A stretch of 32,787 nt of DNA, taken from a virus. The first letter of the stretch is position 1. Every line of letters starts with the position of its first letter. The translations under genes were made by a program, and so were the position numbers. Shown piece by piece: positions 10,054 through 29,774 of this stretch. The DNA is taken from positions 1-32,787 of IMG/VR virus record IMGVR_UViG_3300050121_000300, one strand, 5' to 3'. Under the pieces are notes generated by a model. The model saw only the letters and a list, made by a program, of their open reading frames with translations, was not told where the DNA came from and made no database searches.

Positions 10054-11316
10054 TTGGGAATCGTATCAAGAATCAAAGCAGAGACCAGGGACAACTCAGG
10101 GACAGGCCTAGTTAATCCGGCTCAGTGGTTTAGAGATTGGTTTGGTGGTGGACCGCCCAGCTCTACAGGGATAAATATAAACGAAGATACAGCAGTAAAA
10201 CTTGTTGCAGTTTTCGCTTGTGTCAGGCTCTTATCGGAGAGTATTGCTATGCTGCCTTTCCCGATGTACAAGTCATTGAAGGTGGGAAAAGAAAAAGCAG
10301 TTTATCACCCGCTTTATACTATCCTGCATGATATAGCTAACCCTGAATGTACATCATTTCAGTTTAGGCAAATTATGATGGTAAACGCTTTACTCTGTGG
10401 AAGTGCTTGTGCTGAGATCCAGAGGGATGAATCCGGTAACGTCATTGCCCTCTGGCCTATCCCGACGAAGTATATCCAGCTAACGAGAAACTCAAATACA
10501 AAAGAACTTGTGTATCAAGTAAATAATCCGGATGGAAGCCAATCGAATCTTTACCCTGAACAAGTTTTTTCGTTGCCGGGTATGGGGTTTGACAATGTAA
10601 AGACATTCAAACCAATCCAGCTGGCCAGGGAAGCCATCGGGCTAGGCCTTGCCACACAAGAGTTCGGAGCAAGATTCTTTGGGCAGGGCACAACAGCAAG
10701 TGGTATCGTGGAATATCCGGGTAAGATGTCAGATAAGGCGTATGACCGCTATACAGAATCGTTTGCAGAAAAATACGAGGGCCTAAAGAATAGCAACAGG
10801 TTAGTATTCTTAGAGGAAGGCCTTAAGTTTACACAGTTAACCATTCCGCCGGAAAATGCTCAGTTCCTAGAGACACGTAAGTTTCAAGTAATTGAAATGG
10901 CACGCTTTTTTAATGTCCCACCACACATGATCATGGATTTCGATGGGGCCACGTTCTCTAACATCGAGCAAAAATCTCTTGAATATGTAACATATTCTCT
11001 TATGCCTTGGTTCGTGAAGTGGGAACAAGCTGTGTACAAGTGCCTACTAATGCCTTCTGAGCGCAAAAAATTCTTCGCTAAGTTCAGCGTTGATGCTTTA
11101 CTTCGCGGGGATTTCAGTACGCGAATGAACGGGTACCATATGATGATCCAGGATGGAGTTTGGAACGCAGACGAGATCAGAGAACTGGAGGATATGAATC
11201 CACAACCCGATGAACAAGGCCAGATTTACTTATGTAATGGCAATATGATTCCTAAAAACATGGCGGGTAAAATAAAAGGAGGTGGTAACGGTGGTACTAG
11301 CAACCCGGCAGGATAA
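10054..11316 (+). CDS. Portal protein, HK97 family
   Basis: The 420-residue product forms the dodecameric portal at one capsid vertex, through which DNA passes. It carries typical HK97/phage_portal features: VFACVRLLSESIAMLPFPMY near residue 50-70, LYPEQVFSLPGMGFDNVKTF, and the membrane-proximal stem region with FFNVPPHMIMDFDGATFSNIEQ. It ends in a glycine-rich tail. The start is TTG 10054 after GGGGAGGAGGTG. The protease gene begins within its last 26 bases. Confidence 0.95.
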   Translation: MGIVSRIKAETRDNSGTGLVNPAQWFRDWFGGGPPSSTGININEDTAVKLVAVFACVRLLSESIAMLPFPMYKSLKVGKEKAVYHPLYTILHDIANPECTSFQFRQIMMVNALLCGSACAEIQRDESGNVIALWPIPTKYIQLTRNSNTKELVYQVNNPDGSQSNLYPEQVFSLPGMGFDNVKTFKPIQLAREAIGLGLATQEFGARFFGQGTTASGIVEYPGKMSDKAYDRYTESFAEKYEGLKNSNRLVFLEEGLKFTQLTIPPENAQFLETRKFQVIEMARFFNVPPHMIMDFDGATFSNIEQKSLEYVTYSLMPWFVKWEQAVYKCLLMPSERKKFFAKFSVDALLRGDFSTRMNGYHMMIQDGVWNADEIRELEDMNPQPDEQGQIYLCNGNMIPKNMAGKIKGGGNGGTSNPAG

Positions 11317-12205
11317 GGAAATCAGAACAATAACAGAGAAGGTGGAACTTCGAGCTGCAGAAGATGGGAAGAAAACAATCGTTGGATATGCGGCAAAGTT
11401 TGGGATGAGATCACAAGACCTCGGGGGATTTGTAGAACAAATAGATCCTCATTTCTTTGATAGTATCTTAAATAACGATACCCGAGGGCTCATTAACCAT
11501 GATCCAAACCTCATCCTCGGTAGGACGGCAAGTGGGACACTTAAACTGTCTGTCGATGAGTTCGGTCTCAGGTACGACATTATCCCGCCTAACACATCGT
11601 ACGCCAATGATCTTATCGTAAGCATGGAGCGCGGGGATATTAGTCAAAGCTCTTTCGCCTTCCAGGTGGATTACGGAAACGATGGGGACAATTGGGAATA
11701 CGATGAGGCAAACGACATCTATATCCGGACTTTACTGAAATGCAAATGTCTTTACGATGTTTCTCCAGTAACGTATCCAGCCTATGAGCAGACGGAAAGC
11801 ATCGTAAGCTCAAGGAGCGTTGACAAAATGAAAAAAATGAGACAGCTAAGGACCAGTGGAGCTGATGATCAAGAATGCGTATGTGAAAGTTGTAATCATA
11901 GCGACAACTGTCAGTCTACGGGTGCGAAGTGTTGCATTTGTGGTAATTGTAATTTAGTTAGTCAATGTAGCAAGCCGGGAGCCAATGGCTGTAACTGCGG
12001 TGATTGTTCTATGGCACAAAATAATTGCTGTGAGACAGGCGCAGATAATTGTTTATGCAGCAAATGCACCAACACGGATTGTTGTAAAGGACACCTAGAC
12101 GGCGGAATGGTGCCAGGATCAATGCGAACTCTAAGAAACAAGGATTATAAAAAGGCCCTTGAAATCAAGAGGAAACGCCTTGATTTAGCCGAAAAATCCC
12201 TTTAA
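11291..12205 (+). CDS. Prohead protease with Cys-rich tandem-repeat insert
   Basis: The first ~175 residues are an HK97-type prohead serine protease (S78/U35) that cleaves scaffold and capsid during maturation. VGYAAKFG, the catalytic His in GLINHDP (H70) and the catalytic Ser in SQSSFAF (S120/S121) are present. Residues 196-265 (11876-12085) are extraordinary: 19 cysteines in 70 residues in four CxCxxC units spaced 19, 19 and 20 residues, each followed by another Cys and a GA-type turn. A normal helical tail (KKALEIKRKRLDLAEKSL) closes the protein, so the block is an insertion in the linker. The start is GTG 11291 after AAAGGAGGTGG, within the portal gene's end. Confidence 0.93.
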   Translation: MVLATRQDKEIRTITEKVELRAAEDGKKTIVGYAAKFGMRSQDLGGFVEQIDPHFFDSILNNDTRGLINHDPNLILGRTASGTLKLSVDEFGLRYDIIPPNTSYANDLIVSMERGDISQSSFAFQVDYGNDGDNWEYDEANDIYIRTLLKCKCLYDVSPVTYPAYEQTESIVSSRSVDKMKKMRQLRTSGADDQECVCESCNHSDNCQSTGAKCCICGNCNLVSQCSKPGANGCNCGDCSMAQNNCCETGADNCLCSKCTNTDCCKGHLDGGMVPGSMRTLRNKDYKKALEIKRKRLDLAEKSL

Positions 12206-12257: not shown

Positions 12258-12298
12258 ATATGTCCAAAATTGAAAGAAGAAAGGTGAGAATAAAAAAT

Positions 12299-13498
12299 AT
12301 GAACATAATTGAAACCAAACAGAAACGTGCATCCATCGTTACCCAAGCAAGGTCTTTCCTAGACAAAGCTGAAGTTGAGGGCAGAGCATTAACCACCGAG
12401 GAAGAAACGTCCTACAACAAGGCAATGGATGATGTTGAAAAGCTCTCTCAGGAAATTGACAGGGAGCAGCGCCAACAAAACCTAGAAAGAGGGATGGGAA
12501 AACCCGAAGAAATCCAAGGGACGAACCTAGATGCTGAAGGAAGAGCCAAGGAAGAAAAGGAAAAAGAAATCAGGTCAGCTTTTGCAAAAGGAATGAGATC
12601 TGGGAACTTTGGGGAATATCGCGACTTACAAATGACGAACGCAACTCAGGCCGGATATTTGGTAGCCCCCGAACAATTTGTGGCAACTTTGATCAAGGAC
12701 TTGGACAACTACTTCTTCATCCGTCAATATGCTAAAAAGTTAACCATTTCCGGTACCCAGTCTTTAGGATTTCCAAAACGCACCGCGCGGGCAAGTAAGG
12801 CCATTCGTGGGACAGAACTTGCGGCTCCTACGCCGGACACGTCACTAGCATTTGGCAAACGGGAATTCCGACCTAAGTGGATGACCGCCGAAATTCTTGT
12901 TTCTAAGCCTTTGCTCCAAAACGCTGCCATAGATCCTGAACAGATTGTGCGTGCCGAGCTTGCCTATGCTTTCGGACAAACGCAAGAAATCGAGTTCATG
13001 ATCGGGAATGGTGCCGAGGAAGCGCTCGGGATATTCACGCCAAGTGATTTAGGTATCAGTACCGCCAGAGACGTTTCCAACGTTGGCCTAGTCCTGAAAT
13101 TTGAATCTCTGATTGATGCTAAGTTCAGCCTTAAGCAACAATATTGGAATAACCTTAAATGGATTTTCCACCGTGATGCAATGAAGCAGATCGTTAAGAT
13201 TAAAGATGGTGATGGTCAGTATATTTGGAGACAATCTGTCATCGAAAGCGAACCAGATCGGCTCCTTGGTTTACCATTCCTGATGTCTGAATATGCGCCG
13301 AACACCTTCGAATCTGGTAACTACGTTGGAATCCTTGGTGACCTGTCTCAGTATTGGATCGCTGACTCCCTGAACATGGAGATCCAAGCTCTGTTTGAAC
13401 TCTATGCCCGCACCAATCAGGTTGACTTCATAGCCCGAGCCGCTAATGATGGAATGCCGGTACTAGAAGAAGCATTTGCTCGAATTGCATTACTGTAA
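12299..13498 (+). CDS. Major capsid protein, HK97 fold
   Basis: The 399-residue product builds the icosahedral shell. The first ~100 residues are charged and coiled-coil-like, matching the delta/scaffold domain that the prohead protease removes. From about residue 105 (TNATQAGYLVAPEQF) it has the HK97 pattern: N-arm, E-loop, and the A/P-domains containing KREFRPKWMTAEILVSKPLL and GNGAEEALGI. The ATG at 12299 is chosen because AAAGGTGAG precedes it. The longer frame from 12260 lacks a site. The gene is flanked by GC-rich hairpins on both sides. Confidence 0.94.
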   Translation: MNIIETKQKRASIVTQARSFLDKAEVEGRALTTEEETSYNKAMDDVEKLSQEIDREQRQQNLERGMGKPEEIQGTNLDAEGRAKEEKEKEIRSAFAKGMRSGNFGEYRDLQMTNATQAGYLVAPEQFVATLIKDLDNYFFIRQYAKKLTISGTQSLGFPKRTARASKAIRGTELAAPTPDTSLAFGKREFRPKWMTAEILVSKPLLQNAAIDPEQIVRAELAYAFGQTQEIEFMIGNGAEEALGIFTPSDLGISTARDVSNVGLVLKFESLIDAKFSLKQQYWNNLKWIFHRDAMKQIVKIKDGDGQYIWRQSVIESEPDRLLGLPFLMSEYAPNTFESGNYVGILGDLSQYWIADSLNMEIQALFELYARTNQVDFIARAANDGMPVLEEAFARIALL

Positions 13499-13500
13499 GA

Positions 13501-13520
13501 AAGGGGAAACCCTTCCCCTT
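13501..13520 (+). other. Short GC hairpin after the capsid gene
   Basis: AAGGGG (13501-13506) pairs with CCCCTT (13515-13520). No T run follows, so it is more likely an mRNA-stabilising or processing stem than a terminator. Confidence 0.5.
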
Positions 13521-13545
13521 AAAAAGAAAGTGAGGACTTAAAAAA

Positions 13546-13983
13546 ATGAATTTAAGCAAAGATGTTAAAATTTCTCAGGTCCTTGGATATTCAGCAGCCG
13601 GAGTTGTAGCAAAAACGAGTGCAGTAATTGATATGCAGGGATTTGCCGGAGCGGTTTTTGTCGCAACCCTAGGAGCTGTAACACTGGGATCGGCTATCGC
13701 ACTCAAGGCCCAGGAAGATATCGTCTCATCCATGGCTAACGTCAAAGATCTTTCCGGGGCAGCTGCAGCATTTACAGCTGGCGCTTCTGATTCAAATAAA
13801 TGCCTCATTGTTGATGTATACAGACCAAAAGAAAGATTTCTCCGTGCGGTACTCTCCCCGGCGACTCAAAACACAGAGATACTTTCAATTGTTGCGATCC
13901 AGTATCAGGCTGGTTGCAAGCCAACTCAAATTGACCCTTCCGTAGCAGCTACGGCGTTGGCCGTAAGTCCGAGCGAAATATAA
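13546..13983 (+). CDS. Putative head decoration or structural protein
   Basis: The 145-residue product follows the capsid gene, where head decoration or stabilisation proteins commonly sit. It is alanine/valine-rich and predicted beta-rich (GAVFVATLGAVTLGSAIALK, LIVDVYRPKERFLRAVLSP), with no membrane anchor or enzyme motif. Two GC hairpins (13501-13520 and 13988-14006) bracket the gene, suggesting its message is separately processed. I infer a virion role from position and composition only. Confidence 0.7.
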   Translation: MNLSKDVKISQVLGYSAAGVVAKTSAVIDMQGFAGAVFVATLGAVTLGSAIALKAQEDIVSSMANVKDLSGAAAAFTAGASDSNKCLIVDVYRPKERFLRAVLSPATQNTEILSIVAIQYQAGCKPTQIDPSVAATALAVSPSEI

Positions 13984-13987
13984 GAAA

Positions 13988-14006
13988 AAGGGGCTTTTAG
14001 CCCCTT
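13988..14006 (+). other. GC hairpin between structural genes
   Basis: AAGGGGC (13988-13994) pairs with GCCCCTT (14000-14006) around TTTTA, followed by AATTT. The T run is short, so it is a weak terminator or an RNA-processing stem. Confidence 0.55.
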
Positions 14007-14024
14007 AATTTGGAGGGATAAGAC

Positions 14025-14246
14025 ATGCCTGATAATAGAAACTGTAAAAACTATGAGACCGATGGCGGAGATACCTGGGAAGTTGGCGGAGCTCTGGATA
14101 TTCAAGCGGGCGGTGCGATCACTGCCAATGGCGTTCAGGCCAACGCCGTCACAAAGCCTGTCGCAGGAACAACCGTTGACGCTGAGAGCAGGGCAGCTAT
14201 TAACGCTATCATTGACGCGCTAAAAGCAGTCGGGATAACAAAATAA
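14025..14246 (+). CDS. Head fiber-like protein
   Basis: The 73-residue product resembles small phage head-fiber proteins (Phage_fiber_2 type). It carries GGAITANGVQANAVTKPVAG followed by a helix, SRAAINAIIDALKAVGI, that would trimerise or anchor it on the capsid. The ATG at 14025 follows TTGGAGGG. It sits between the decoration-like gene and the first connector gene, fitting an accessory capsid role. Confidence 0.75.
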   Translation: MPDNRNCKNYETDGGDTWEVGGALDIQAGGAITANGVQANAVTKPVAGTTVDAESRAAINAIIDALKAVGITK

Positions 14247-14262
14247 AGGGCGGTGAGCTACC

Positions 14263-14850
14263 ATGTCACTAACCCTTAACCTCAAAACTCCTGCAGTTGA
14301 GCCAATGACATTAACAGAGGCGAAGAACTTTTTGAGGGTAGATCTTGACGATGACAATATTTACATTGGTTCCTTGATTACTTCTGCCAGGGAATATTGC
14401 GAATCCGTGACCATGAGGGCGCTTGGGACTCAAAAGTTTGAACTTGTCCTAGACGATTTCCCCTCCATTAAGGATTTTATTGAAATTCCAAGAGCTCCTT
14501 TACAAAAAGTTGATACGGCACAATACAGGAATTCCTTCGGAGAGATAAAGGATATTGATCCTGCAACTATCCTATTTGATTATGACAGTGAACCAGGACG
14601 AATAGTTTTAGCCTATAATCGGTTCTGGCCTATCTTCATTCCCTATCCTGCTGGTGCGGTGATAATCAATTACACGGCCGGTTATACTGCCCTAAACCCT
14701 ATGCCCATTGGAATCAAGCAAGCAATGTTTTTACTTATTGGCCAGTGGTACACAAACCGCGAGCCGATGGTAGACAGAAGATTGACGGAACTAAAGTATT
14801 CCGTAGACTCATTGCTCGCACCGTACCGGGTAATTACTTTAAGGTGGTGA
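14263..14850 (+). CDS. Head-tail connector, gp6-like
   Basis: The 195-residue product matches HK97 gp6/YqbG-type connector proteins, which form a ring below the portal. The family's start is clear (MTLTEAKNFLRVDLDDDNIYIGSLITSAREYCE), as is a beta-rich middle ending in INYTAGYTALNPMPIGIKQA and the helix LLIGQWYTNREPM. It overlaps the next gene's region at GTGATG, so the two are translationally coupled. Confidence 0.9.
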   Translation: MSLTLNLKTPAVEPMTLTEAKNFLRVDLDDDNIYIGSLITSAREYCESVTMRALGTQKFELVLDDFPSIKDFIEIPRAPLQKVDTAQYRNSFGEIKDIDPATILFDYDSEPGRIVLAYNRFWPIFIPYPAGAVIINYTAGYTALNPMPIGIKQAMFLLIGQWYTNREPMVDRRLTELKYSVDSLLAPYRVITLRW

Positions 14851-14855
14851 GTGAT

Positions 14856-15185
14856 GTGAACATTGGTACCCTGAACAAGCGAATAACTATACTCACGACA
14901 ACTGAGGGCAAAAACGAAGCAGGGGACACAATTCTAGTCCCTGCTACTTTCAAAACAGTGTGGGCGAGCGTATCCCCAACCACGGGTAGAGACTATGTCG
15001 AAGCCAAAAAATTCCAAGCCGAGTTAACCTATAACTTTACCATTCGCTATCTAGCCGGAGTTACGCCCGACATGACGATCCAATTCAAGGACAGAATATT
15101 TCTAATCCAAGACATAATTAATCCCTTTGAGCACAATGCAATGTTGGAGATCAAGGCTATCGAGAGGGTGGTTAAAAATGGCTGA
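14856..15185 (+). CDS. Head closure protein (phage head-tail adaptor)
   Basis: The 109-residue product resembles SPP1 gp16/HK97 gp7-type adaptors: the start NIGTLNKRITIL, the pattern VWASVSPTTGRDYVEAKKFQ, and a C-terminal YLAGVTPDMTIQFKDRIFLI. It closes the head after packaging and docks the tail. The GTG at 14856 has AAGGTGG 9 bases upstream; a GTG at 14847 would overlap that site. It overlaps the following gene by 8 bases. Confidence 0.85.
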   Translation: MNIGTLNKRITILTTTEGKNEAGDTILVPATFKTVWASVSPTTGRDYVEAKKFQAELTYNFTIRYLAGVTPDMTIQFKDRIFLIQDIINPFEHNAMLEIKAIERVVKNG

Positions 15186-15609
15186 TGATTTCGAAGTGAA
15201 GTTTGAGGGAATTAACGATTTTAAAGCAAAACTTGAAGAAGTTAGAGCCATATATCCCTACAAGGAAGAAGAAATTCTTCTGAAATTGGGCGGAATGTTA
15301 AAGGCTAGCTCCAAGGATAAGACACCTTTGGGTGGGGACAAAAAACATTTAAGAGACCAATATAAACTATCCAAGGTGAATTATGAAAAAGATGGAAGCA
15401 ACATAACCATGACGAACAAAAGCCCTCTCTTTCACCTAATCGAAAATGGGCACCAGCAGGTAGTGGGAGGGAAGTTGGCCAACGGCGGTAAGGTGGTTAA
15501 ATTTGTACCCGGAAAACACATGGTAGAAACAGCAATGATCGAATTGGATCAGGTATTGCCAACAGTAGTGGATGCATGGCTGGACGGTATCCTGGGTGGT
15601 GTGAAATGA
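15178..15609 (+). CDS. Head-tail joining protein, HK97 gp10-like
   Basis: The 143-residue product has the HK97-gp10 pattern: FEVKFEGINDFKAKLEEV, a lysine-rich middle KDKTPLGGDKKHLRDQYKLS, and FHLIENGHQQVVGGK with PGKHMVETAM at the end. Such proteins assemble at the neck or tail completion stage. The ATG at 15178 follows GAGGGTGG and overlaps the preceding stop. It overlaps the next gene by ATGA. Confidence 0.88.
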   Translation: MADDFEVKFEGINDFKAKLEEVRAIYPYKEEEILLKLGGMLKASSKDKTPLGGDKKHLRDQYKLSKVNYEKDGSNITMTNKSPLFHLIENGHQQVVGGKLANGGKVVKFVPGKHMVETAMIELDQVLPTVVDAWLDGILGGVK

Positions 15610-16040
15610 TCACACTAGTAAGTGTTAAGAAGGCTGTCAATGATGCGTTAGTTCCAGTTGGGCTAAAGACATATGGAAACGAGGTCAAAGAGGGCTTCAC
15701 TCGTCCTTGCTTTTTTGTTGGGGTAACCCCGGTTACGAGCGAAACCTTCAAGAAAGTTACAAGCGAAAACTCTTTGATGATTGAAATCGTATACTTTTCC
15801 GCAAATAAAACAGACCTGGAAAATCTACAAATGTATGACACGCTGAAAGGGATACTAACTCCAATCCTGACCATAGGAACTAGAAAGCTTTTGGTGAAAA
15901 ATTTCCGGGCGCAAGTCGTTGATGAGACGGATCACATTTATTCAATCAAATTCGACTTAAACTTTTATGATGAAATCGTGGATACCACGCCAGTAGCAGG
16001 CCCAATGGGAACAATAAATTTAAATATAGGAGGTCAATAG
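15606..16040 (+). CDS. Tail terminator/completion protein
   Basis: The 144-residue product lies between gp10-like and sheath genes, where the tail-terminator protein belongs. It begins MITLVSVKKAVNDALVPVGL and contains PCFFVGVTPVTSETFKKVTS and FDLNFYDEI, like the phage tail terminator family near PBSX XkdJ. It should cap the tail tube and sheath. The ATG at 15606 is inside ATGA overlapping the upstream stop, indicating coupled translation. Confidence 0.78.
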   Translation: MITLVSVKKAVNDALVPVGLKTYGNEVKEGFTRPCFFVGVTPVTSETFKKVTSENSLMIEIVYFSANKTDLENLQMYDTLKGILTPILTIGTRKLLVKNFRAQVVDETDHIYSIKFDLNFYDEIVDTTPVAGPMGTINLNIGGQ

Positions 16041-16041
16041 C

Positions 16042-17106
16042 ATGGGATTACCAAACATCGAAGTTATCTTTAAAGCACTGGCCGTAAGCGCGATCGCAAG
16101 GGGTTCCAGAGGCGTCGTTGCAATCGTCTTAAAGGATGCGCTCCACAATGGAGCCAACGTTTACACAGACCCAACAGCAATTCCTCAAGATTACTCGGCT
16201 TATAATCTTAATCAAATTAATCTGGCATTTCAGGGCGGAGTGCAAGCCCCTAATAGCTTGATCGTATACGTTGAACCGGTTGCTTCGGCTGATTACACGG
16301 CAGCCATGACCTATTTGGAAACAGTCAAATGGGATTATGGGTGCGTGCCTGAGATCAGTTCGCCAGATGCTTTGCTATTTGCAACATGGATCAAAGCGGC
16401 TAGAGATTCCAAGGGCCTCCGATCAAAGATGGTCCTGCCAAACACAGCAGGCGACCACGAAGGAGTCATCAACTTTGCCACAGATGGGATTGGCCTGGCA
16501 TCTGGAACGGTAACAGCCACGGATTATTGCAGCCGAATTGCAGGGATTTTAGCAGGGAATCCGTTGACCATGAGTGCAACATACCAAGTTTTATCTGAGG
16601 TCTTGGATGTTCCCCATTCGACTAATGATCAATTTGACACGTTAATTGATGCGGGGAAACTTGTACTGATGAATGATGGAGAAAAGGTTAAGATCGCGCG
16701 TGCGGTAAATAGCCTAGTCACCCTTGTTCCGGGGAAAAGCGCTGACTTTAAGAAAATCAAGATTGTGGACATTATGGATTTAGTCAACAATGACATCAAG
16801 AAAACCTACGACGATAATTATGTCGGCAAGATCCCGAATGATTACGACCATAAGTGCTTGCTCATAACAGCCATTAATGCCTATCTGGAAGGGCTAGAGA
16901 ATCAAATGCTTTTAGACAAAGGTCAGAACAGCGTTGGGATAGACGTGGCAGCCCAAACGTTATACATCCAGGGTATCGGTACGGATACAAGCACAATGAC
17001 TGCACTGGCTATTAAGTCAGCAAACACAGGATCCTCCGTGCTCCTAACCGGCACAGCAAAACCACTTGATGCCATGGAAGACTTAACGCTAAATTTATTT
17101 TTATAG
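16042..17106 (+). CDS. xkdK: Contractile tail sheath protein
   Basis: The 354-residue sheath subunit shows the tail is contractile (myovirus-like). It matches PBSX XkdK-type sheaths: GLPNIEVIFKALAVSAIARGSRG at the start, the domain with NLVFQGG-like LAFQGGVQAPNSLIVYVE, the conserved LVPGKSADFKKIKIVDIMDL and NDIKKTYDDNYVGKIPNDYD, and a C-terminal beta strand (LTLNLFL) for handshakes with neighbours. It follows the terminator gene directly and precedes the tube gene by 13 bases. Confidence 0.93.
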   Translation: MGLPNIEVIFKALAVSAIARGSRGVVAIVLKDALHNGANVYTDPTAIPQDYSAYNLNQINLAFQGGVQAPNSLIVYVEPVASADYTAAMTYLETVKWDYGCVPEISSPDALLFATWIKAARDSKGLRSKMVLPNTAGDHEGVINFATDGIGLASGTVTATDYCSRIAGILAGNPLTMSATYQVLSEVLDVPHSTNDQFDTLIDAGKLVLMNDGEKVKIARAVNSLVTLVPGKSADFKKIKIVDIMDLVNNDIKKTYDDNYVGKIPNDYDHKCLLITAINAYLEGLENQMLLDKGQNSVGIDVAAQTLYIQGIGTDTSTMTALAIKSANTGSSVLLTGTAKPLDAMEDLTLNLFL

Positions 17107-17119
17107 GAGGTATTAATTT

Positions 17120-17548
17120 ATGGACAACTATAAGGCGAGTGACGTGATAAATGGTACCTGGGGGGAAATGTGGTTGAACGGCGACCTGATGGCAGAAACA
17201 ATTGCACTTCAGGCTAAAGTAACATTGACGAAAACAGCGGTAAACATGTGCGGAACGCTTGTGGCGGGACAGAAGGTCACTGGGATGGACCTCAAAGGCA
17301 CCATGAAAATAAACAAGGTGACGTCCTACATGATTAGAGCTAACAGTGCCAACATTAAAGCTGGTAAAACGTCAGAGTATACCATCATTTCTAATTTAGC
17401 TGATCCTCAAAGCATGGGAGCAGAAAGAATAGTGCTAAAAGGAGTCATGATTGACGAATTAACGTTAATAGACTGGGAAGGAAAGAAGAATTTAGAGGAA
17501 TCAATTCCTTTCACTTTCCAAGACTGGGACTTGCTAGATTTGATCTAG
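17120..17548 (+). CDS. xkdM: Tail tube protein
   Basis: The 142-residue tube subunit resembles XkdM: KASDVINGTWGEMWLNGDLM, LVAGQKVTGMDLKGTMKINK and a C-terminal EESIPFTFQDWDLLDLI. It forms the inner tail tube inside the sheath. A strong stem-loop (17521-17561) overlaps its last codons and stop, so its 3' end is also a terminator. This could limit expression of the chaperone that follows. Confidence 0.92.
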   Translation: MDNYKASDVINGTWGEMWLNGDLMAETIALQAKVTLTKTAVNMCGTLVAGQKVTGMDLKGTMKINKVTSYMIRANSANIKAGKTSEYTIISNLADPQSMGAERIVLKGVMIDELTLIDWEGKKNLEESIPFTFQDWDLLDLI

Positions 17549-17566
17549 CAAGTCCCAGTCTCTTTT
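17521..17566 (+). terminator. Strong terminator overlapping the tube gene's end
   Basis: A perfect 19-base stem (17521-17539 with 17543-17561) with a TTG loop is followed by CTTTTC. The left arm lies wholly inside coding sequence, and the TAG stop is within the stem. It should reduce transcription from structural genes into the chaperone and tape-measure genes. Confidence 0.85.
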
Positions 17567-17582
17567 CGAGGAGGATAACCTG

Positions 17583-17729
17583 ATGCTATTTTTAACGATT
17601 GCGTATGTCCATTTGACGATCATTTATATTCAATTAATGATCGTCAATTTTCTAACGGAACCTAACTTAGCAATTATTTTGACCGCACTATGTATTTACA
17701 TAATAATTAAAAAACAGGGGGAATTGTCA
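17583..17729 (+). other. Hydrophobic in-frame leader before the chaperone
   Basis: With its own GAGGAGG site and ATG, this stretch encodes about 49 residues with two hydrophobic runs (LTIAYVHLTIIYIQLMIVNF and IILTALCIYIIIK) and reads straight into the chaperone. It also holds a 12-base perfect inverted repeat (17613-17624 with 17636-17647, TTGACGATCATT). It may be a leader peptide, a membrane-anchored isoform, or structured untranslated RNA. Confidence 0.45.
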
Positions 17730-18131
17730 ATGAACTTAGTCGATAAATTACTCAAAATGGATGCTGGTAAAATAGAAGTTCCATCTAAGACTATCACCAT
17801 AAAATCACGTAAAACGAACCAAACACTCGAATTCCCATGTAAGGCCGTAGATAGTGAAAAGTACGCCGAGATCCAAGAAGGCGCATTGGAAATCCGTAAG
17901 GGTGACGTTAAAAAGATCAATATGTACTCAATGAAAACCCTAATCATCATCGAAGGATGTCCTGATGTATTCAAATCCAAAGAGGTAATGGAACATTTCG
18001 GGACCCCGACACCGAAGGAACTTATCAAAAAGCTCTTGCTCAGCGGAGAGATCGACGACCTCTACAACGGCATCAATGAACTTTCTGGCTATGAAAAGGA
18101 CGACGAGGACGAAGAAACCATAAAAAACTAA
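17730..18131 (+). CDS. xkdN: Tail assembly chaperone, zero-frame product (XkdN-like)
   Basis: The 133-residue product is the chaperone expected to bind the tape measure during tail assembly. It starts at ATG 17730 after CAGGGGGAAT and has the XkdN-like core (MNLVDKLLKMDAGKIEVPSK ... RKTNQTLEFPCKAV). The same frame is open upstream to ATG 17583, itself preceded by GAGGAGG, which would add 49 very hydrophobic residues unlike any chaperone. The zero frame ends directly after a slippery heptamer (18122-18128), and a longer -1 product is expected. Confidence 0.85.
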   Translation: MNLVDKLLKMDAGKIEVPSKTITIKSRKTNQTLEFPCKAVDSEKYAEIQEGALEIRKGDVKKINMYSMKTLIIIEGCPDVFKSKEVMEHFGTPTPKELIKKLLLSGEIDDLYNGINELSGYEKDDEDEETIKN

Positions 18132-18167
18132 TTAACGAAGATAGGAATGTGCAAACAGCCTATCTTC
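18122..18167 (+). promoter_or_regulatory. -1 programmed ribosomal frameshift signal
   Basis: The heptamer A AAA AAC at 18122-18128 is in the zero frame (ATA AAA AAC TAA) immediately before the stop. After an 8-base spacer comes a stem of GAAGATAGG (18137-18145) and CCTATCTTC (18159-18167) with a 13-base loop. This is the classic heptamer-spacer-stem arrangement used in phage tail chaperones (lambda G/GT type). Confidence 0.9.
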
Positions 18168-18301
18168 TTTTCAGGTACAAAAACATGAGCCCCAAGGATT
18201 ACTTCGATAGAAAGCCTGGTGAGAAGAAGATTCTCCGGGCTTTTATTTTGCACGAGATTAAAGAAAGAAACGAAGAAAACTCTCAGGATGGGGGTGATTA
18301 G
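18128..18301 (+). CDS. Tail assembly chaperone, -1 frame extension
   Basis: After the -1 slip, translation continues as LINEDRNVQTAYLLFRYKNM, then SPKDYFDRKPGEKKILRAFI and a charged tail ending at TAG 18299-18301. This adds 57 residues to give a 190-residue fusion, the T-like domain that contacts tail tube and tape measure in other phages. The frame has no good independent start near its beginning. It ends one base before the tape-measure ATG. Confidence 0.85.
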   Translation, partial: LINEDRNVQTAYLLFRYKNMSPKDYFDRKPGEKKILRAFILHEIKERNEENSQDGGD

Positions 18302-20647
18302 ATGGCCCACGTTATTGATGCGATAATAACCCTAAGGGACCAGTTGAGCGGAACACTAAAGAATGTCAACGCAAACCTTTCGCAGTTCCAAAGGCAGGCA
18401 ACATTTGCGGGGAAGAACATGATATCGGTTGGTAAGGACCTGGAAAAAGTAGGGGGGAATCTTACCAAGACGATTACACTGCCCATAGTAGGTTTAGGAG
18501 TTGCGGCAGTGGCGGCGGCGGCAACATTCACACATCAAATGGCCGACATACGCAAAGAAGTTGTGGCAACTGCGGGATCTGCTTCAAAGGCAAATTCTAT
18601 AATGTCCCAGATGTCAAAATCCTCACTGCAATGGAGCGAGGACTTTGGACAGTCTACGGATAGTATAAATGCGGGGTTATTAACACTTGTAAAAGATGGT
18701 TATAGTGGTAGCGTAGCAATGAGTGTAATGCAAACAGCGCTAAATACAGCAAGAGGTAGTAACGAAGACTTAACAACAGCCGTTAATACACTTGGTACAT
18801 CCCTAGAAGCTTACGGATTAAAAACTAATAATGCGGCTAAAACCACACAGAATATGACGCACATGGCTGATACCTTTGCTTATATTGCGAACCATACAAA
18901 AGCAAGCATAAGTTCACTTGGGGAAGCCTTTAGTATAGTTGGCCCAACTGCAAGTGCTTTAAAACAACCCATGGAACAAACAGCCGCAGCAATAGGCATA
19001 TTGCAATCCAATGGTATTGACGCTTCAACTGCGGCGACATCCTTAAAATCAGGATTAGTAAATCTTACAAAACCAACAAAGAAAATGTCAGCCGCAATGA
19101 AGGAAATGGGATTGAACGCATTTGATAGCAAAGGCAGCATGAAAGATTTGCCAACTTTACTTAATAATATAGAAAAGGGTACGACTGGATGGACAAACCA
19201 ACAGAAAGAAGCTGCGGTAGCGACTATTTTTGGGAAAGAGTCATTAGCAAGTTGGAATGTTCTCTTAGCTAAAGGCGGTGGCAATTTAAGCGCGCTCTCA
19301 AAAAGCGCAAAGGGAGCGACGGGGGAAACTCAGAAACTGTCCGACAGTATGAAAAACACATCCGTAAATCAATTTAGTAAACTAAAAGAATCAATTCACG
19401 CGCTTGGTGTTGTGTTTGGGGAAGATATATTACCCTTATTAACACCAATAGTCAACAAACTAACAGATATGGCTAAAAGTTTTAGCAATTTAGATGATAA
19501 TACAAAGAAATCAATCATTAAATTTGCTTTGATTGCGGCAGCAGTAGGACCTCCTATTTTGATAATTGGCAAATTAACGCACGGCATAGGACAAACAATC
19601 GACGGTTTTACTAGACTATCAAAGTCGATATCCAATGCTGGCGGCATCCTGAAATACCTTGCTACACCTGGCGGGATAGTCATCGTGGTGATAATGGCTA
19701 TAGCTGTAGCCGCGTTCCTTTTGATCAAATACTGGGGCCCCATAAGCACCTTCTTCAAGAAAGTATGGAATGAAATTCTTGCCGTAACTCAAAAGGTATG
19801 GGCAGCTATTGGACCTACTATAATGGGAGCTGTAAACAAGATAGTGGCCTTCTGGAACGCAATATGGCCAGAGTTGAAAACGGTATTCGAATTTGTATTC
19901 AAGGTTCTAGCCGTTATTGTTGGTCCGTATATTACCGGAATTTACGTCATAATTAAAGCGGTACTAGGCTTTATAATGGGATGCTGGAAAGATGCTTGGA
20001 ACGTAATTAAAGATTACATCAAATTAGTTTGGGATGTCATTTCGGGTGTAATCAAATATTATTGGGACTTGATTAGCGGGTTAATTCAAATCGGGCTTGA
20101 TATCCTAACTGGCCACTGGGGAGCGGCGTGGACGCACATAAAAGAGTTGGTTGTAACTCTCTGGCATGACATCGGGAGCCTGTTTGGTAACATTGCAACG
20201 GACGCGCTAAAGTGGGGATCAGACTTTGTTAAAGGATTAATAGATGGTATCAAGGGAGCGATAGGTGGCGTAATTGATGCGGTCAAGGGTATTGGCAGCA
20301 CCATCAAGAGCTACCTTCACTTTTCAGTTCCAGATGTAGGTCCATTGACCGATTACATGTCATGGATGCCTGATATGCTCAAGGGAATGAGCCAAGGAAT
20401 AAAGGTTAATACCCATCTAGTAACCGATAAAGTAAAAGATATCGCAGTTGGAATTAAGGCTAATGTACAGCAAGGAACAACGGGGGCGAAAGGGTCAACA
20501 GGATCAACAGGATCAGGAGGGGCGAGTAAGGGTGGCTTTAACCTTACTGTAAATATGTATGGAAACGTCAGCAGTGATTCTGATATAGATAGGTTTGCGA
20601 ACGCTTTAGTGCTAAAACTTAATACAACGGCAGCGAATATGGCCTAA
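18302..20647 (+). CDS. Tape measure protein
   Basis: The 781-residue protein sets tail length and fills the tube. Its N-terminal third matches the PhageMin_Tail domain (IMSQMSKSSLQWSEDFGQST, LVKDGYSGSVAMSVMQTALN). The centre is helical, with hydrophobic spans near 453-475 (GGIVIVVIMAIAVAAFLLIK) and 530-565. The C-terminus has a glycine/threonine-rich linker (TTGAKGSTGSTGSGG) and a final LTVNMYGNVSSDSDIDRFA. ATG 18302 follows the frameshift product's stop by one base with GGGGGTG upstream. At this length a short contractile tail is expected. Confidence 0.93.
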   Translation: MAHVIDAIITLRDQLSGTLKNVNANLSQFQRQATFAGKNMISVGKDLEKVGGNLTKTITLPIVGLGVAAVAAAATFTHQMADIRKEVVATAGSASKANSIMSQMSKSSLQWSEDFGQSTDSINAGLLTLVKDGYSGSVAMSVMQTALNTARGSNEDLTTAVNTLGTSLEAYGLKTNNAAKTTQNMTHMADTFAYIANHTKASISSLGEAFSIVGPTASALKQPMEQTAAAIGILQSNGIDASTAATSLKSGLVNLTKPTKKMSAAMKEMGLNAFDSKGSMKDLPTLLNNIEKGTTGWTNQQKEAAVATIFGKESLASWNVLLAKGGGNLSALSKSAKGATGETQKLSDSMKNTSVNQFSKLKESIHALGVVFGEDILPLLTPIVNKLTDMAKSFSNLDDNTKKSIIKFALIAAAVGPPILIIGKLTHGIGQTIDGFTRLSKSISNAGGILKYLATPGGIVIVVIMAIAVAAFLLIKYWGPISTFFKKVWNEILAVTQKVWAAIGPTIMGAVNKIVAFWNAIWPELKTVFEFVFKVLAVIVGPYITGIYVIIKAVLGFIMGCWKDAWNVIKDYIKLVWDVISGVIKYYWDLISGLIQIGLDILTGHWGAAWTHIKELVVTLWHDIGSLFGNIATDALKWGSDFVKGLIDGIKGAIGGVIDAVKGIGSTIKSYLHFSVPDVGPLTDYMSWMPDMLKGMSQGIKVNTHLVTDKVKDIAVGIKANVQQGTTGAKGSTGSTGSGGASKGGFNLTVNMYGNVSSDSDIDRFANALVLKLNTTAANMA

Positions 20648-20660
20648 AGGAGGTACGGCA

Positions 20661-21326
20661 ATGGAATTTTGGCTAATACAAGGCAATGAAAAACTACAAC
20701 TCCCCGTACCTCCCCCGAATTACGCTATAAAGCGAGCACAAAATAACAGTGTTGTCGTTGTCGAAGGCATCGGAGAAGTAAGCTTTATCGGAAAGCCCAA
20801 GCTGGCAGAAATACCGTCAATAACATCTTTTTTTCCCAACCAAGCCTACAGTTTTTGCCAATATAGCACGTTCCCTACTCCGAAAGAGTGCACAGACCTG
20901 ATTGAAAAATGGATGTTGAGTGGGAATCCCATCCGTTATATCGTGACCGGTGCTATAAATGCGGAATGTACCATAGAAGATTTTGAGTATGGGGAGCAAG
21001 ACGGAACTGGAGATGTGTATTTTACCTTAAATCTAAAAGAATACAAAGTAATAAGTGCGACTGTAACCGCCATAACAACGGTAGCTGCAGTCCCAGCAAC
21101 TACGACAACGCCAGCGACACCCGCCAAGGTTGTTCCAGTAGTGGTGGCAGTAGCAAGGCCAGTAGCGAAAGCAATTCCATTAAAATATACAGTTAAAAAA
21201 GGTGATACACTCTGGGCCATTGCTAAGAGACAATATGGAGATGGGTCTAAGTCCACGGTAATAGCAACCAAAAACGGCATCAAGAACCCTAACTTAATCA
21301 AAGTTGGTCAGGTGTTGCTACTGTGA
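20661..21326 (+). CDS. xkdP: LysM-domain tail protein (XkdP-like)
   Basis: The 221-residue product has an XkdP-like N-terminal domain (about 1-130), an alanine/threonine/proline-rich linker (about 133-172) and a C-terminal LysM domain (YTVKKGDTLWAIAKRQYGDG near 175-194). LysM binds peptidoglycan, and in PBSX-type tails this protein is part of the baseplate/hub assembly. AAAGGAGG precedes ATG 20661. It overlaps the hub gene start by GTGA. Confidence 0.92.
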   Translation: MEFWLIQGNEKLQLPVPPPNYAIKRAQNNSVVVVEGIGEVSFIGKPKLAEIPSITSFFPNQAYSFCQYSTFPTPKECTDLIEKWMLSGNPIRYIVTGAINAECTIEDFEYGEQDGTGDVYFTLNLKEYKVISATVTAITTVAAVPATTTTPATPAKVVPVVVAVARPVAKAIPLKYTVKKGDTLWAIAKRQYGDGSKSTVIATKNGIKNPNLIKVGQVLLL

Positions 21327-22309
21327 TAAAGCTGTACAGCTTAATCAACGGGGTTGTAACAGACATAACCAACGCCATCAAGAGCATAAGCAGCACAGGG
21401 GATAAGGCACAGGCAGCGCGTAAATTAGACATAACGCTAGTCTACTCTACTTGGGACAAGAACCAACCTAGAACAAACATTGAACCCGGTACAAAGATTT
21501 GGCTATTACTTGATGGCAAGGAGATATTTAGAGGTGTAGCTTGGGATAGGGGCATTGATTCGACATCCCAAGGATTACCGGTTGTTGTTTATGACTATCT
21601 AATCTACCTTACGAAATCTAAGGTAACCTACAATTTTAGTAACATAACTGCAGAAGATGCCACTAAGAAAATATGTTCAGATCTTGGAATAAGTGTGGGA
21701 AGCATAGCAACCACGGGCATTAAACTAAACCGTCTTATCGCTCAAAAGTCGGGCTATGATGCCATCATGGAAATGTACACTCAGGCATCTAAAACAAACG
21801 GTAAAAAATATATCCCAGTAATGGACGGAATCAAGTTATCTGTAATCGAAAAGGGAAAAACGGTTGCAAACTACACACTGAGATCACAGTCAGGCAACGC
21901 GAGTAGCAATGTGATAGGCACAAGTTACCATGACACTATGGAGGGCATGATTAACAAGGTGAAAATTTATGATAGTGAAAACAAATACATTAAAGAGGTG
22001 AATAATAATACAGGGGTTGCTCAGTACGGATTACTTCAAGACAACTACACTATGGAGACAGACAAGAATAGCGAAGTTGTCGCTAATGGTATGCTTACCG
22101 GCGTACAAAAAGATGTGACTATTCCGGCATTAGGAAATTGGGATTGTCGAACTGGTTATGCAGTAAACACAGAAATATCATACATTAGCCCTTTACTAAA
22201 AGCAGTTATGTATATTGATGGAGATACCCATACATGGTTACCCGGCACCGGTGAATACACAATGAGTTTGATTCTGAGTTTTGGGAACATCATGGACAGC
22301 AAGGAGTGA
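21323..22309 (+). CDS. xkdQ: Baseplate hub protein (XkdQ/gp27-like)
   Basis: The 328-residue product resembles XkdQ: KLDITLVYSTWDKNQPRTNI, WLLLDGKEIFRGVAWDRGID, and the later GLLQDNYTMETDKNSEV with CRTGYAVNTEISYISPLLK. It forms the hub that connects tube and baseplate. It starts at GTG 21323, overlapping the LysM gene's stop. It is one of the last recognisable tail proteins here; the remaining baseplate genes expected next are absent. Confidence 0.88.
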   Translation: MIKLYSLINGVVTDITNAIKSISSTGDKAQAARKLDITLVYSTWDKNQPRTNIEPGTKIWLLLDGKEIFRGVAWDRGIDSTSQGLPVVVYDYLIYLTKSKVTYNFSNITAEDATKKICSDLGISVGSIATTGIKLNRLIAQKSGYDAIMEMYTQASKTNGKKYIPVMDGIKLSVIEKGKTVANYTLRSQSGNASSNVIGTSYHDTMEGMINKVKIYDSENKYIKEVNNNTGVAQYGLLQDNYTMETDKNSEVVANGMLTGVQKDVTIPALGNWDCRTGYAVNTEISYISPLLKAVMYIDGDTHTWLPGTGEYTMSLILSFGNIMDSKE

Positions 22310-22313
22310 TGCT

Positions 22314-22682
22314 ATGAAAAACCCATATTCTGAAATCATTAATCATATGAGAACGCAGGGGGGAAAGAATAACACGCCTTACGTTCAGGTTGGTGTAGTT
22401 GTAGCTTCCAATCCGTTAACCGTCAAACTAGGTGACTTGCAGATCGGAAAAGGGAATCTCTTGGTTGCCGATTATCTATTACCTAACTATGCACGAAAGA
22501 TCTCCATACCGACAACCACGGCCGTCGGAAACACGACAACGGAAAGCATCACAAGTATCGGTATACCCGATGGAGAAATTGCCCTTACGGATGGTTTAAA
22601 AGCAAATGATGTTGTCGCCCTGATCCCAACGTTGGACGGTCAGACATACATTGTGCTAGCAAAGGTGGTTAGCACAGCATAG
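22314..22682 (+). CDS. xkdR: DUF2577 tail protein (XkdR-like)
   Basis: The 122-residue product matches DUF2577/XkdR: PYVQVGVVVASNPLTVKLGD near the start and DGLKANDVVALIPTLDGQTYIVLAKV at the end. The ATG at 22314 follows AAGGAGTGATG. In PBSX-like phages it is followed by DUF2634 (XkdS) and baseplate J genes (XkdT). Here the next gene is an unrelated DNA-binding protein, so this is where the tail module is cut. Confidence 0.88.
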   Translation: MKNPYSEIINHMRTQGGKNNTPYVQVGVVVASNPLTVKLGDLQIGKGNLLVADYLLPNYARKISIPTTTAVGNTTTESITSIGIPDGEIALTDGLKANDVVALIPTLDGQTYIVLAKVVSTA

Positions 22683-25283: not shown

Positions 25284-25847
25284 TTAGAGCAGGAGAGGTG
25301 CAAGTGGAGCGAAGGATTTAAGGAGTAACAGGAAACCTCCCGCTGCCAATCCTCCACCGATGATCTTAGCATCCGGAGGATTATCCCCTGACTTACTCCC
25401 ACTAGTGTAATAAGCGAATATATCAGATAAGAAATTACCGCCAACCTTAGTTGCTTTATTTTGTTTAGGTGGATTCTTGCGTTTCTCTTCTGCATCAACC
25501 AGGGCTTTATCTTTTCTGCTTGGTGCTTTACCATTTTGCTTAGCTAGTTCAACCCTATAATACGCTTGCTTTACTTGCATATCCCATTGTGTTTTCTGTC
25601 TAATAAGATAGGCTGTAGACTTTCCAATTCCGGATAATATGCCGGCCTTCTCAATGCCTAGATTCTTCATTTCATCGTTATTATAATTAAAGGGAGATAC
25701 TATAAACTGAGTTACATCTACAACGGACGGTTCAGTTGTCATTGCGCTTGCTGGCGGTGATTTCATTAAGGATGTTCCTGATAATAAAAGCAACGACGCA
25801 ATGATTAAATTTCGTTTTATGGATCTCTTTCGCAAAACTATAAACAC
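25284..25847 (-). CDS. Exported protein with C-terminal membrane anchor
   Basis: The 187-residue product starts at GTG 25847 after GGGAGGG. It has a Sec signal-like N-terminus (basic, then NLIIASLLLLSGTSLMKSPP with a likely cleavage after ASA), a lysine-rich middle (QNGKAPSRKDKALVDAEEKR) and a hydrophobic C-terminus (GGGLAAGGFLLLLKSFAPLA). It overlaps the preceding gene by 10 bases and belongs to the same operon as the ATPase. In conjugation-type clusters such a protein could be a cell-envelope component; unproven. Confidence 0.75.
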   Translation of the reverse strand: MFIVLRKRSIKRNLIIASLLLLSGTSLMKSPPASAMTTEPSVVDVTQFIVSPFNYNNDEMKNLGIEKAGILSGIGKSTAYLIRQKTQWDMQVKQAYYRVELAKQNGKAPSRKDKALVDAEEKRKNPPKQNKATKVGGNFLSDIFAYYTSGSKSGDNPPDAKIIGGGLAAGGFLLLLKSFAPLAPLLL

Positions 25848-26521
25848 GCTGATCCCTCCCTAATAATATCGTCAATCAGATTAACATCGTATTTTACAGG
25901 TGTCTTTGATCCTGCAACAAGAGCTTTTATTTTTGCTCCATGCTTTGCAGAGTCAGTAACTAAAATAGCCTTTGGGAAACGCACAGCCCCATCTAATCGC
26001 TTCATAAGTTTTGAATTAGGAAACCCCTCTTTAAGATATAGTTCATCACAGTTGGACACTTTCAAGTATTTGTTTTTACTAACAGATCCACGGCAATACT
26101 CAATAATGTACCAGCGGACTTCTTTGGTCATTGGGATATAAGTCGAACATAAAACATCTACCTTTAGGCCGAATTCTTCGAGTTGATCCAACTCCCATGT
26201 CAGGATCTTCTCGCCTTGCTTACGATTAAACCATACATAAATCCATGATAATCCTAAGTTGTGGAAGGGAAGTCCTGTCAACTTCCCTTGATAATAAACA
26301 GTTGGAGTATTTAAACTCAATCTAGTCTTTTTCACTAATCCCCTTTCAAAAAGTGATTTCATTCGCTCCTGGCATTTACGCTTACCAGATGGGGACTTAA
26401 AGAGTAATTCGGTGAGTTGTTCAGTATCCATCACTCCGCATAAATCAATTGCTTCAAGTATCGCAGCGTCTCTCAGGATTGCCTTCTTTACATTCTGGTT
26501 GTTCTGATTTCTCAGTTTCAA
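25838..26521 (-). CDS. Replication-relaxation family-like protein
   Basis: The 227-residue product begins with a winged-helix-type part (AILEAIDLCGVMDTEQLTEL, KRKCQERMKSLFERGLVKKT) and then a beta-rich half (KVDVLCSTYIPMTKEVRWYI) that matches the layout of the replication-relaxation family of Gram-positive plasmids. TTG 26521 is chosen because GAGAGGGG precedes it. The gene overlaps the FtsK-like gene's end by 68 bases and is coupled to it. It is expected to take part in replication or mobilisation of the element; biochemistry of the family is poorly known. Confidence 0.72.
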   Translation of the reverse strand: MKLRNQNNQNVKKAILRDAAILEAIDLCGVMDTEQLTELLFKSPSGKRKCQERMKSLFERGLVKKTRLSLNTPTVYYQGKLTGLPFHNLGLSWIYVWFNRKQGEKILTWELDQLEEFGLKVDVLCSTYIPMTKEVRWYIIEYCRGSVSKNKYLKVSNCDELYLKEGFPNSKLMKRLDGAVRFPKAILVTDSAKHGAKIKALVAGSKTPVKYDVNLIDDIIREGSACL

Positions 26522-27641
26522 ATTTATACGCCCCTCTCGGAACCTGATTTGACAGAATAGAAACAGCCTCCTTTGCTGACAAATACATAGCTTGAATTTG
26601 CGTATCGGTTTCATTATTCCATATTGCCATACCAGGTTTCTTTTCTAACTCTGCGCCCCGAGTGTTGCCAGACCCTAGAACGATCTGCGAATCGGTAGCA
26701 TCACGCACATAGAAGCATATGGCCCCGGCTAATTGGCTGCGCACATCGGTGAACCCATCCCATAATTTCGCACTCGGTCTTTGTGTTGCGAGCACTAAGG
26801 ATATCCCAGCTACCCGAGATAAAACGGATAAATCCCCAAGGGCTTCAAAGCATTTCTTATTCTTGATTTGTGTCAGTTCATCCACAAACAAAACTAGATA
26901 AGGGAGTTCGTGTTCCTCTCGATATTCGGCGAAGTTCTGACAATCTGACTCTCGCATTAACTTCATTCTGCGTTTCATTTCTGCAATATGTTTATTCAGT
27001 AATTGTTCTGATCCGGCATCATCTAAGGCCAGATTTACCCAAGGTGAGAAGCGAGGGAAGTCAACGCCTTTGCGGTCGATAACGCTCACTCCAACTCCAC
27101 ATAGTAGCAATGCGACCATAGCCCCGAGGAGGAAAGAGGTCTTCCCATAACCCGTCTGGCCACCAACCATCATATGGGGTAGGGTTATCATATCCACGAC
27201 AATGGTTTTTCCGTCAGGAGTTTTACCGATAGGGCAGGGGGCCAACATTTTAGGATATAGAGTAGGATCAAACACAAACTTAATTTCATCTTGGCAGACT
27301 AGTTGATGCGTACTCAAAACTAATTTCCTCCCTTTGCTTGTGATTTCGCAACTAGAATTAGTGTAGCTCTCGAAGTGCCTACGGTTCTTTTCAAATTCAT
27401 CCTTTCCAACACCTGGGGGGAGCGCAAAGATGTAGTCAATGCCAGTTTCCGTCTTATGAACTTTCATAAGTATCGGCTCAAGCCCTTCTTTGTTTTGGAG
27501 ATGCGTACCCTTCACGACTTCCATGATTCCGTTGTCGCCTTTGAATTGCTTGATACCCCAAACAATGATGGAGGATACCAATCCGAGGATGTCAGGTTTT
27601 ACGGCGCCGGATCCCTTTGCTTTACTCTCCATGTGTTTCAT
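26454..27641 (-). CDS. FtsK/SpoIIIE-type DNA translocase/coupling ATPase
   Basis: The 395-residue product contains Walker A GGQTGYGKTSFL (near 157-168), Walker B YLVLFVDELTQ (near 245-255) and a VLATQRP arginine-finger-like motif, all typical of FtsK/HerA DNA pumps. A short hydrophobic stretch near the N-terminus (ILGLVSSIIVWGI) may anchor it. It is shorter than ICE coupling proteins such as ConQ. Its partner genes are a replication-relaxation protein and an exported protein, so DNA transfer or partition is likely. The start is uncertain: ATG 27641 has no clear site and overlaps the upstream gene. Confidence 0.85.
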   Translation of the reverse strand: MKHMESKAKGSGAVKPDILGLVSSIIVWGIKQFKGDNGIMEVVKGTHLQNKEGLEPILMKVHKTETGIDYIFALPPGVGKDEFEKNRRHFESYTNSSCEITSKGRKLVLSTHQLVCQDEIKFVFDPTLYPKMLAPCPIGKTPDGKTIVVDMITLPHMMVGGQTGYGKTSFLLGAMVALLLCGVGVSVIDRKGVDFPRFSPWVNLALDDAGSEQLLNKHIAEMKRRMKLMRESDCQNFAEYREEHELPYLVLFVDELTQIKNKKCFEALGDLSVLSRVAGISLVLATQRPSAKLWDGFTDVRSQLAGAICFYVRDATDSQIVLGSGNTRGAELEKKPGMAIWNNETDTQIQAMYLSAKEAVSILSNQVPRGAYKFETEKSEQPECKEGNPERRCDT

Positions 27642-27843
27642 CCAAACTAATTTGACCAGGTACATTCTTTGGCACACTCCGGCGTGTTTGTGGCCTTGGG
27701 GCCGGGGTCTGTGCCTTAGCATTCAACTTCCTGTAAATATCCACGCTAATCAGGCTGACTAGAACCTCATGGGGAACACTCGCCGTGATGGTGTACTCTT
27801 TGATGGCATCATTCAGGATGCGCTGGATTGCGATAATATCCAT
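27622..27843 (-). CDS. Small protein before the FtsK gene
   Basis: The 73-residue product starts at ATG 27843 after AGGAGTTGAA. It has a helical N-terminal half (DIIAIQRILNDAIKEYTITA, VLVSLISVDIYRKLNAKAQ) and a basic, proline-rich tail (TPAPRPQTRRSVPKNVP). No family is recognised. It overlaps the FtsK-like start, so it is likely co-translated and may be an accessory of the translocase. Confidence 0.65.
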   Translation of the reverse strand: MDIIAIQRILNDAIKEYTITASVPHEVLVSLISVDIYRKLNAKAQTPAPRPQTRRSVPKNVPGQISLDETHGE

Positions 27844-29303: not shown

Positions 29304-29774
29304 TTGAGCGAAGTTGACCTGTTGGCTATTCATTATGTAGTTATTGATGATTACTTTAGCGATTTTAAAGACGGGGAGAACGAACAGAGAGGCGTTAAAG
29401 ATGTCTCTCTGTTTCAATCTGCTCTATATGAGCCACAAAAGACATTTGACAGGAAGGACCTCTATCCAGACATTTTGTCAAAAGCTGCAGCCTATTTGCG
29501 TTCATTTGCATTGAATCATGCTTTTCACAATGGTAACAAAAGAACTGCATTGATGGCTACTATAGTATTTCTAGAGATGAATGGATATGACGTTATTGCC
29601 GATCCCAAAAGATTGTACAGGCTTGCTGTGACAGTAGTAATATCTAAACCCCCCATTAATCAAATAACGCATAAATATTTAAGAAAATATACACGGTTTA
29701 TCGGCACTCGAAATACTTCTTCCCAAAAACATTTGGGGTTCTTACGCTATATACGTGACATAATAATAGGATAA
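29304..29774 (+). CDS. doc: Doc/Fic-type toxin (death-on-curing)
   Basis: The 156-residue product has the Doc form of the Fic motif, HAFHNGNKRTA at residues 72-82, with the family's hallmarks before it (LLAIHYVVIDDYF, FQSALYEPQKTF) and FLEMNGYDV after it. P1 Doc phosphorylates EF-Tu using this motif. The start is TTG 29304. A C-terminal extension past the core (from about residue 120, KYLRKYTRFIGTRNTSSQKH) is longer than a minimal Doc and may be a frame extension into non-homologous sequence. Confidence 0.9.
   Translation: MSEVDLLAIHYVVIDDYFSDFKDGENEQRGVKDVSLFQSALYEPQKTFDRKDLYPDILSKAAAYLRSFALNHAFHNGNKRTALMATIVFLEMNGYDVIADPKRLYRLAVTVVISKPPINQITHKYLRKYTRFIGTRNTSSQKHLGFLRYIRDIIIG

Follow-up and report, generated by a model that had tools for sequence, protein, structure and literature searches.

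What triggers the proteases of phage heads on time is still not well explained. Assembly of the phage head takes place in the cytoplasm. Prohead 1 takes in ~60 copies of the protease in HK97 and ~90 in D3, and purified D3 Prohead 2 contains cleaved capsid protein only, with no protease (PMC12749128). SPN3US gp245 cleaves off its own C-terminal propeptide, 64 residues long (PMC10052503). The S78 proteases examined from other phages, and from phage-plasmids, are 180-214 aa in length and their core leads straight into a short charged/Leu-rich tail. The enzyme considered here, encoded in a viral stretch of 32,787 nucleotides (IMG/VR record IMGVR_UViG_3300050121_000300; the whole of the analysed stretch is termed the window), carries in addition a Cys-rich module. 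The first-pass annotation had held that ordinary HK97-type proteases are without such an insert, and none of the relatives of about 180-214 aa has one.

The window enzyme classifies as an S78 head maturation protease. It passes both Pfam S78 (PF04586; 146 bits against a cut-off of 21) and TIGR01543 (84.9 bits against 59), and its gene lies between those for the portal and major capsid protein (MCP), as is expected of the HK97 type. H73 (in NHD) and S124 (in SSF), which correspond to the catalytic His and Ser of the S78 family, are invariant in alignments of S78 proteases. Compared by fold with the PDB, an AF2 model of the whole protein best matches gp21 of T4, a prohead protease (best E 3.1e-3 among the gp21 chains, prob 1.00), the match being limited to the core. 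The likelier start codon is GTG 11291, which has the Shine-Dalgarno sequence AAGGAGG at 11276-11282, 8 nt upstream; residue numbers throughout count from GTG 11282 (Table 1). The phage is contractile-tailed, with sheath and XkdN-like genes present. Elsewhere in the window, overlapping FtsK/SpoIIIE-like and weak Replic_Relax-like genes are oriented opposite to the structural genes (25838-27722, minus strand), and a gene for a Fic/DOC family protein is near the right end (29304-29774).

Table 1. Coordinates, in the window, of the protease gene, its parts and its neighbours.
Feature	Position	Strand	Remarks
Portal protein, upstream neighbour	10054..11316	+	Phage_portal 5.1e-99
S78 (HK97-type) head maturation protease gene with Cys module	11282..12205	+	307 aa from GTG 11282
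Catalytic core, Peptidase_S78, residues 20-185	11339..11836	+	Pfam 1.1e-42; TIGR01543; T4 gp21 PDB matches
Cys-rich module, 73 residues (199-271)	11876..12094	+	Equal length in all four lineages
Unit 1 CVCESCNHSDNC	11876..11911	+	
Unit 2 CICGNCNLVSQC	11933..11968	+	
Unit 3 CNCGDCSMAQNNCC	11990..12031	+	
Unit 4 CLCSKCTNTDCC	12050..12085	+	
C-terminal helix past module, residues 286-306	12137..12199	+	AF2, moderate to low confidence
Major capsid protein, downstream neighbour	12260..13498	+	Phage_capsid 3.7e-50

The module is placed past the catalytic core, in the C-terminal tail. Its initial description as an insert within the prohead protease stands, with the added detail that the core itself is uninterrupted. 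AF2 helices flank it (170-192 before, 286-306 after), the second matching the C-terminal helix first described as following the insert. For the module on its own AF2 yields no confident fold (pLDDT 37), and modeling of the whole protease gives no usable module fold either (module pLDDT about 30). There are 19 Cys in residues 199-268 (11876-12085), at 199, 201, 204, 210, 217, 218, 220, 223, 229, 237, 239, 242, 249, 250, 257, 259, 262, 267 and 268, with 2 in the remaining ~234 residues. A recount agrees exactly with the 19 Cys and four CxCxxC at 19-20 residue spacing first reported (units start at 11876, 11933, 11990 and 12050; spacing 19/19/20), and the numbering then given for the Cys block, 196-265, is that which follows from a start at GTG 11291. 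When 73 residues with 19 Cys are shuffled, ~1.4% of shuffles have at least four CxCxxC; the pattern alone would thus be modest evidence, whereas its spacing being kept in independent phages is strong evidence. Across the four lineages described below, the composition is 18-19 Cys in 73 (25-26%), 0-1 F/W/Y (aromatics are absent in 3 of the 4 copies), 6-8 I/L/V/M/F/W/Y, 6-7 D/E and 3-5 K/R. Nucleic-acid binding is not favored, the module not being basic.

Five separate assemblies, representing four lineages, have the module: the window and its near-twin, and three further contigs (L034, L035 and L036). The near-twin, an IMG/VR contig (L002/L028), is 98% identical to the window over the 5.1 kb compared, and the protease genes differ by 5 synonymous and 0 nonsynonymous changes. 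(Downstream, window 13500-22548 and the near-twin IMGVR 3300011994_000016 are ~98% identical up to 15.2 kb and 91% beyond, with unaligned gaps near 17.6 and 20.3-20.6 kb, as in mosaic relatives.) On L034 (= L018; IMGVR 3300046463_000016) and on L036 (contig JAUZPB010000037.1, from a MAG labeled Bacteroidota) the bearer is again an S78 protease. On L035 (IMGVR 3300002020_000024), it is a head maturation protease of the ClpP/S14 type, which passes Pfam CLP_protease (PF00574; 2.5e-18, 67.1 bits against a cut-off of 20.2) and NF045542 (129.1 bits against 120), is encoded in the same portal-protease-capsid order as in the window, and likewise has the module between its core and a short C-terminal tail. 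Cultured ClpP-type relatives align to the L035 protease over residues 4-220 only, short of the module, and that of Paenibacillus larvae phage Tadhana ends without it. What had been put forward as a feature of one protease is instead a transferable domain found also on a ClpP-type head protease.

Head proteases of the two types can be found beside related portals: those of the Caldibacillus phage CBP1 (L192) and L036 are 39% identical, and the protease is ClpP-type in CBP1 and S78 in L036. Head proteases are swapped as units, and this may make it easier for the Cys module to move between them. A separate S78 protease ORF (L004:2533-5056) has a C-terminal extension of ~500 residues, part Gly/Ala-rich and with a repeated CGRD.DGKFSSGN motif; it is a large head-protease addition different from the Cys module. 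With regard to hosts, portals related to that of the window come from phages infecting Clostridia or other Bacillota; for the L036 portal, the relatives are in phages of Staphylococcus, Caldibacillus, Lactobacillus, Clostridioides and similar. A Bacillota host is therefore likely for the module phages. JAUZPB010000037.1 is a 37 kb Bacillota-like temperate phage contig, with a serine recombinase, in a Bacteroidota-labeled MAG, and the label may reflect a binning error. Bacteroidota as home of the module was considered and rejected: in 396 genomes the one strong match is L036's own, and 4 others (E 0.003-0.009) are chance-like.

In all four lineages the module is 73 residues long with zero indels, at pairwise identities of 64-79%, so the Cys spacing, whose retention in relatives the first-pass annotation had proposed to check, is kept. 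Invariant are 17 Cys together with 23 non-Cys residues (H9, H74 and 21 others), and the conserved non-Cys stretches are HSDNCQS, CSKPG, NCC.TG and KGH. Synonymous sites are saturated in 5 of the 6 module pairs (pS >=0.85) and pN is 0.13-0.19, which marks the likeness as the work of strong purifying selection and not of recent copying. Direct DNA repeats among the units are weak (76% over 17-21 nt), and the early view that the DNA of the repeats has diverged under selection on the protein pattern is borne out. Units at the same position in different phages are 68% alike on average, compared with 34% for neighboring units; with unit i nearest to unit i of the other phages, the four-unit array was already complete in the ancestor.

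Portals and MCPs of the four lineages are far less alike than the modules, at ~20-28% identity where alignable, the exception being the L034 and L036 portals at 66%. The S78 cores that bear the module do not group as a single clade (AU p=0.00042, for a core tree of 13 rows), and the core of the window enzyme shares 55% identity with that of the module-free Paenibacillus phage Pd_22F as against 43-44% with those of L034 and L036. Given that the cores of the carriers are not one clade and that portals and capsids have diverged, the module has been gained, exchanged or lost several times. The comparisons establish, at the level of sequence, one homologous and transferable domain of fixed length, on at least two unrelated protease families and at the same gene position. 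Its preservation evidently depends on no single kind of protease, portal or capsid; a capsid or portal protein as its partner is not favored, as those diverge and the module does not. The conservation of its non-Cys residues speaks more for a small, defined domain than for a loose sponge for metal.

The module seems to be rare. No relative of it was detected in 50,697 phage records or in 72,556 plasmids, and when 84,980 genomes of bacteria and archaea were scanned once by pattern, L036 was the sole match. Peptide- and DNA-pattern scans of IMG/VR matched only the module contigs already named, Cys-only and partial DNA patterns there giving mostly low-complexity or out-of-frame chance matches; as the patterns in these scans of collections were short and exact, distant relatives could escape them. 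SEG masking is excluded as the reason for absent BLAST matches, alignments being equal with the filter on and off. There was no match to the module in Pfam at E up to 10, none inside it in NCBIfam at E up to 1, and none in PHROGs or PDB, and a search of the literature found no described case of such a module on head proteases. It constitutes a new family of domain, without an entry in Pfam, NCBIfam or PHROGs, borne by an enzyme of familiar type.

The 17 invariant Cys, the near lack of aromatics and the reducing cytoplasm lead us to infer that the module binds metal. Each of the four CxCxxC...C units, with its four Cys, could hold one ion, zinc being the likeliest. More tentatively, the module, lying in the C-terminal tail, would be carried by the protease into the prohead and may act as a metal- or redox-responsive clip that clips, holds back or releases that tail, with effects on the timing both of protease activation and of tail removal. 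Taken as a whole, this reading of a transferable metal-thiolate domain, likely with Zn(II), in a tail that enters the prohead and affects protease activation or tail shedding, has in our estimation about an even chance of being right. Against it stand the lack of a confident AF2 fold and of any profile match to a metallothionein or zinc-binding family, and no autocleavage site was identified in the module-bearing proteases. That the two protease folds carrying the module are unrelated makes a specific allosteric interplay with the catalytic domain unlikely and leaves, as mechanisms, tethering, tail shedding, a host partner in common or plain chemistry. The broader notion that phages attach a novel metal-binding domain to head proteases of unrelated fold and so make prohead maturation dependent on metal or redox, i.e. 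a portable switch, is possible, though more doubtful than probable.

Where the metal-thiolate reading has the module acting on the tail, it might otherwise serve as a scaffold, of Cys or zinc, showing conserved surface loops (such as HSDNCQS, CSKPG and KGH) that recruit or block a conserved host partner, be it a chaperone, a host protease or another cell factor, while the head is assembled. That non-Cys residues are kept while head proteins are ~20-28% identical would place such a partner outside the head genes, and with Bacillota-like portals the hosts may share a factor; however, the fold itself could demand equal conservation and the module has no relative in any annotated family, and we consider this explanation unlikely. 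Quite unlikely, in our judgment, is that the protease is a mere vehicle for chemical cargo, tens of modules buffering metal or guarding head proteins from oxidation and later being lost or digested. The module's indifference to protease fold and to portal and capsid type suits cargo, and 60-90 proteases per prohead would bring >1000 thiols (PMC12749128), but a sponge would have no need of a fixed length or of 23 invariant residues besides Cys, and the lack of protease in D3 Prohead 2 (PMC12749128) makes lasting virion protection improbable.

A metal-free disulfide-rich domain, structural or a spacer of the EGF or knottin type, is very unlikely. Though Cys-rich tandem repeats with Gly turns are typical of disulfide-rich repeats too, head assembly is cytoplasmic, the likely hosts are anaerobic to judge from the portal relatives, the number of conserved Cys is odd (17, with totals of 18 in two lineages and 19 in two), and CxC spacing with loss of aromatics suits thiolate clusters better. 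A neutral or decaying repeat, or an artefact of assembly, could have been suspected from there being a single protease with the module in the window and none in all cultured phages searched. It now has practically no weight, being refuted by conservation: saturated synonymous and few nonsynonymous changes in four lineages from five assemblies. Decay of the Cys pattern in homologues and misassembly were the grounds on which the first-pass annotation would have given up its claim; what was found is retention of 73 residues and 17 Cys. Its interpretation is supported in part, namely for an added module, for strong purifying selection and for a metallothionein-like composition, metal or redox binding and control of activation being putative.

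The presence of this conserved domain on two unrelated head proteases, whatever the capsid or portal type, amounts to natural evidence for some general control or chemistry bearing on these enzymes inside the prohead. The module is small and separable, and its function is thereby open to deletion or transplantation tests.

Metallothioneins are rich in Cys and poor in, or devoid of, aromatics, with CxC motifs and four-unit Cys arrays. The module resembles them in all four respects (25-26% Cys, CxC motifs, 0-1 F/W/Y, a four-unit array); however, it matches no profile of any metallothionein or zinc-binding family, is fused to a protease where they are small free proteins, and has strongly conserved non-Cys residues. 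'Metallothionein-like', as it was first called, is therefore apt for composition (26% Cys in the window, and the scarcity of aromatics) and not for family membership: the module cannot be filed as a metallothionein, and its metal binding is putative. The CDGSH iron-sulfur domain, with Cys spacing that is partly alike, was rejected, there being no DGxH and no Pfam match. Among head proteases, the S78 enzyme of Pd_22F (PF04586; TIGR01543) has in common with that of the window a core ~55% identical, the portal-protease-MCP order and a charged/Leu-rich C-terminal tail. The L035 core is of the same type as the ClpP-related head protease (NF045542; PF00574) of Tadhana and has the same gene position, but L035 has the Cys module near its C-terminus whereas Tadhana and the other examined ones are without it. 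With the SPN3US gp245 propeptide the comparison is by position and length, both being C-terminal extensions of head proteases and of similar length.
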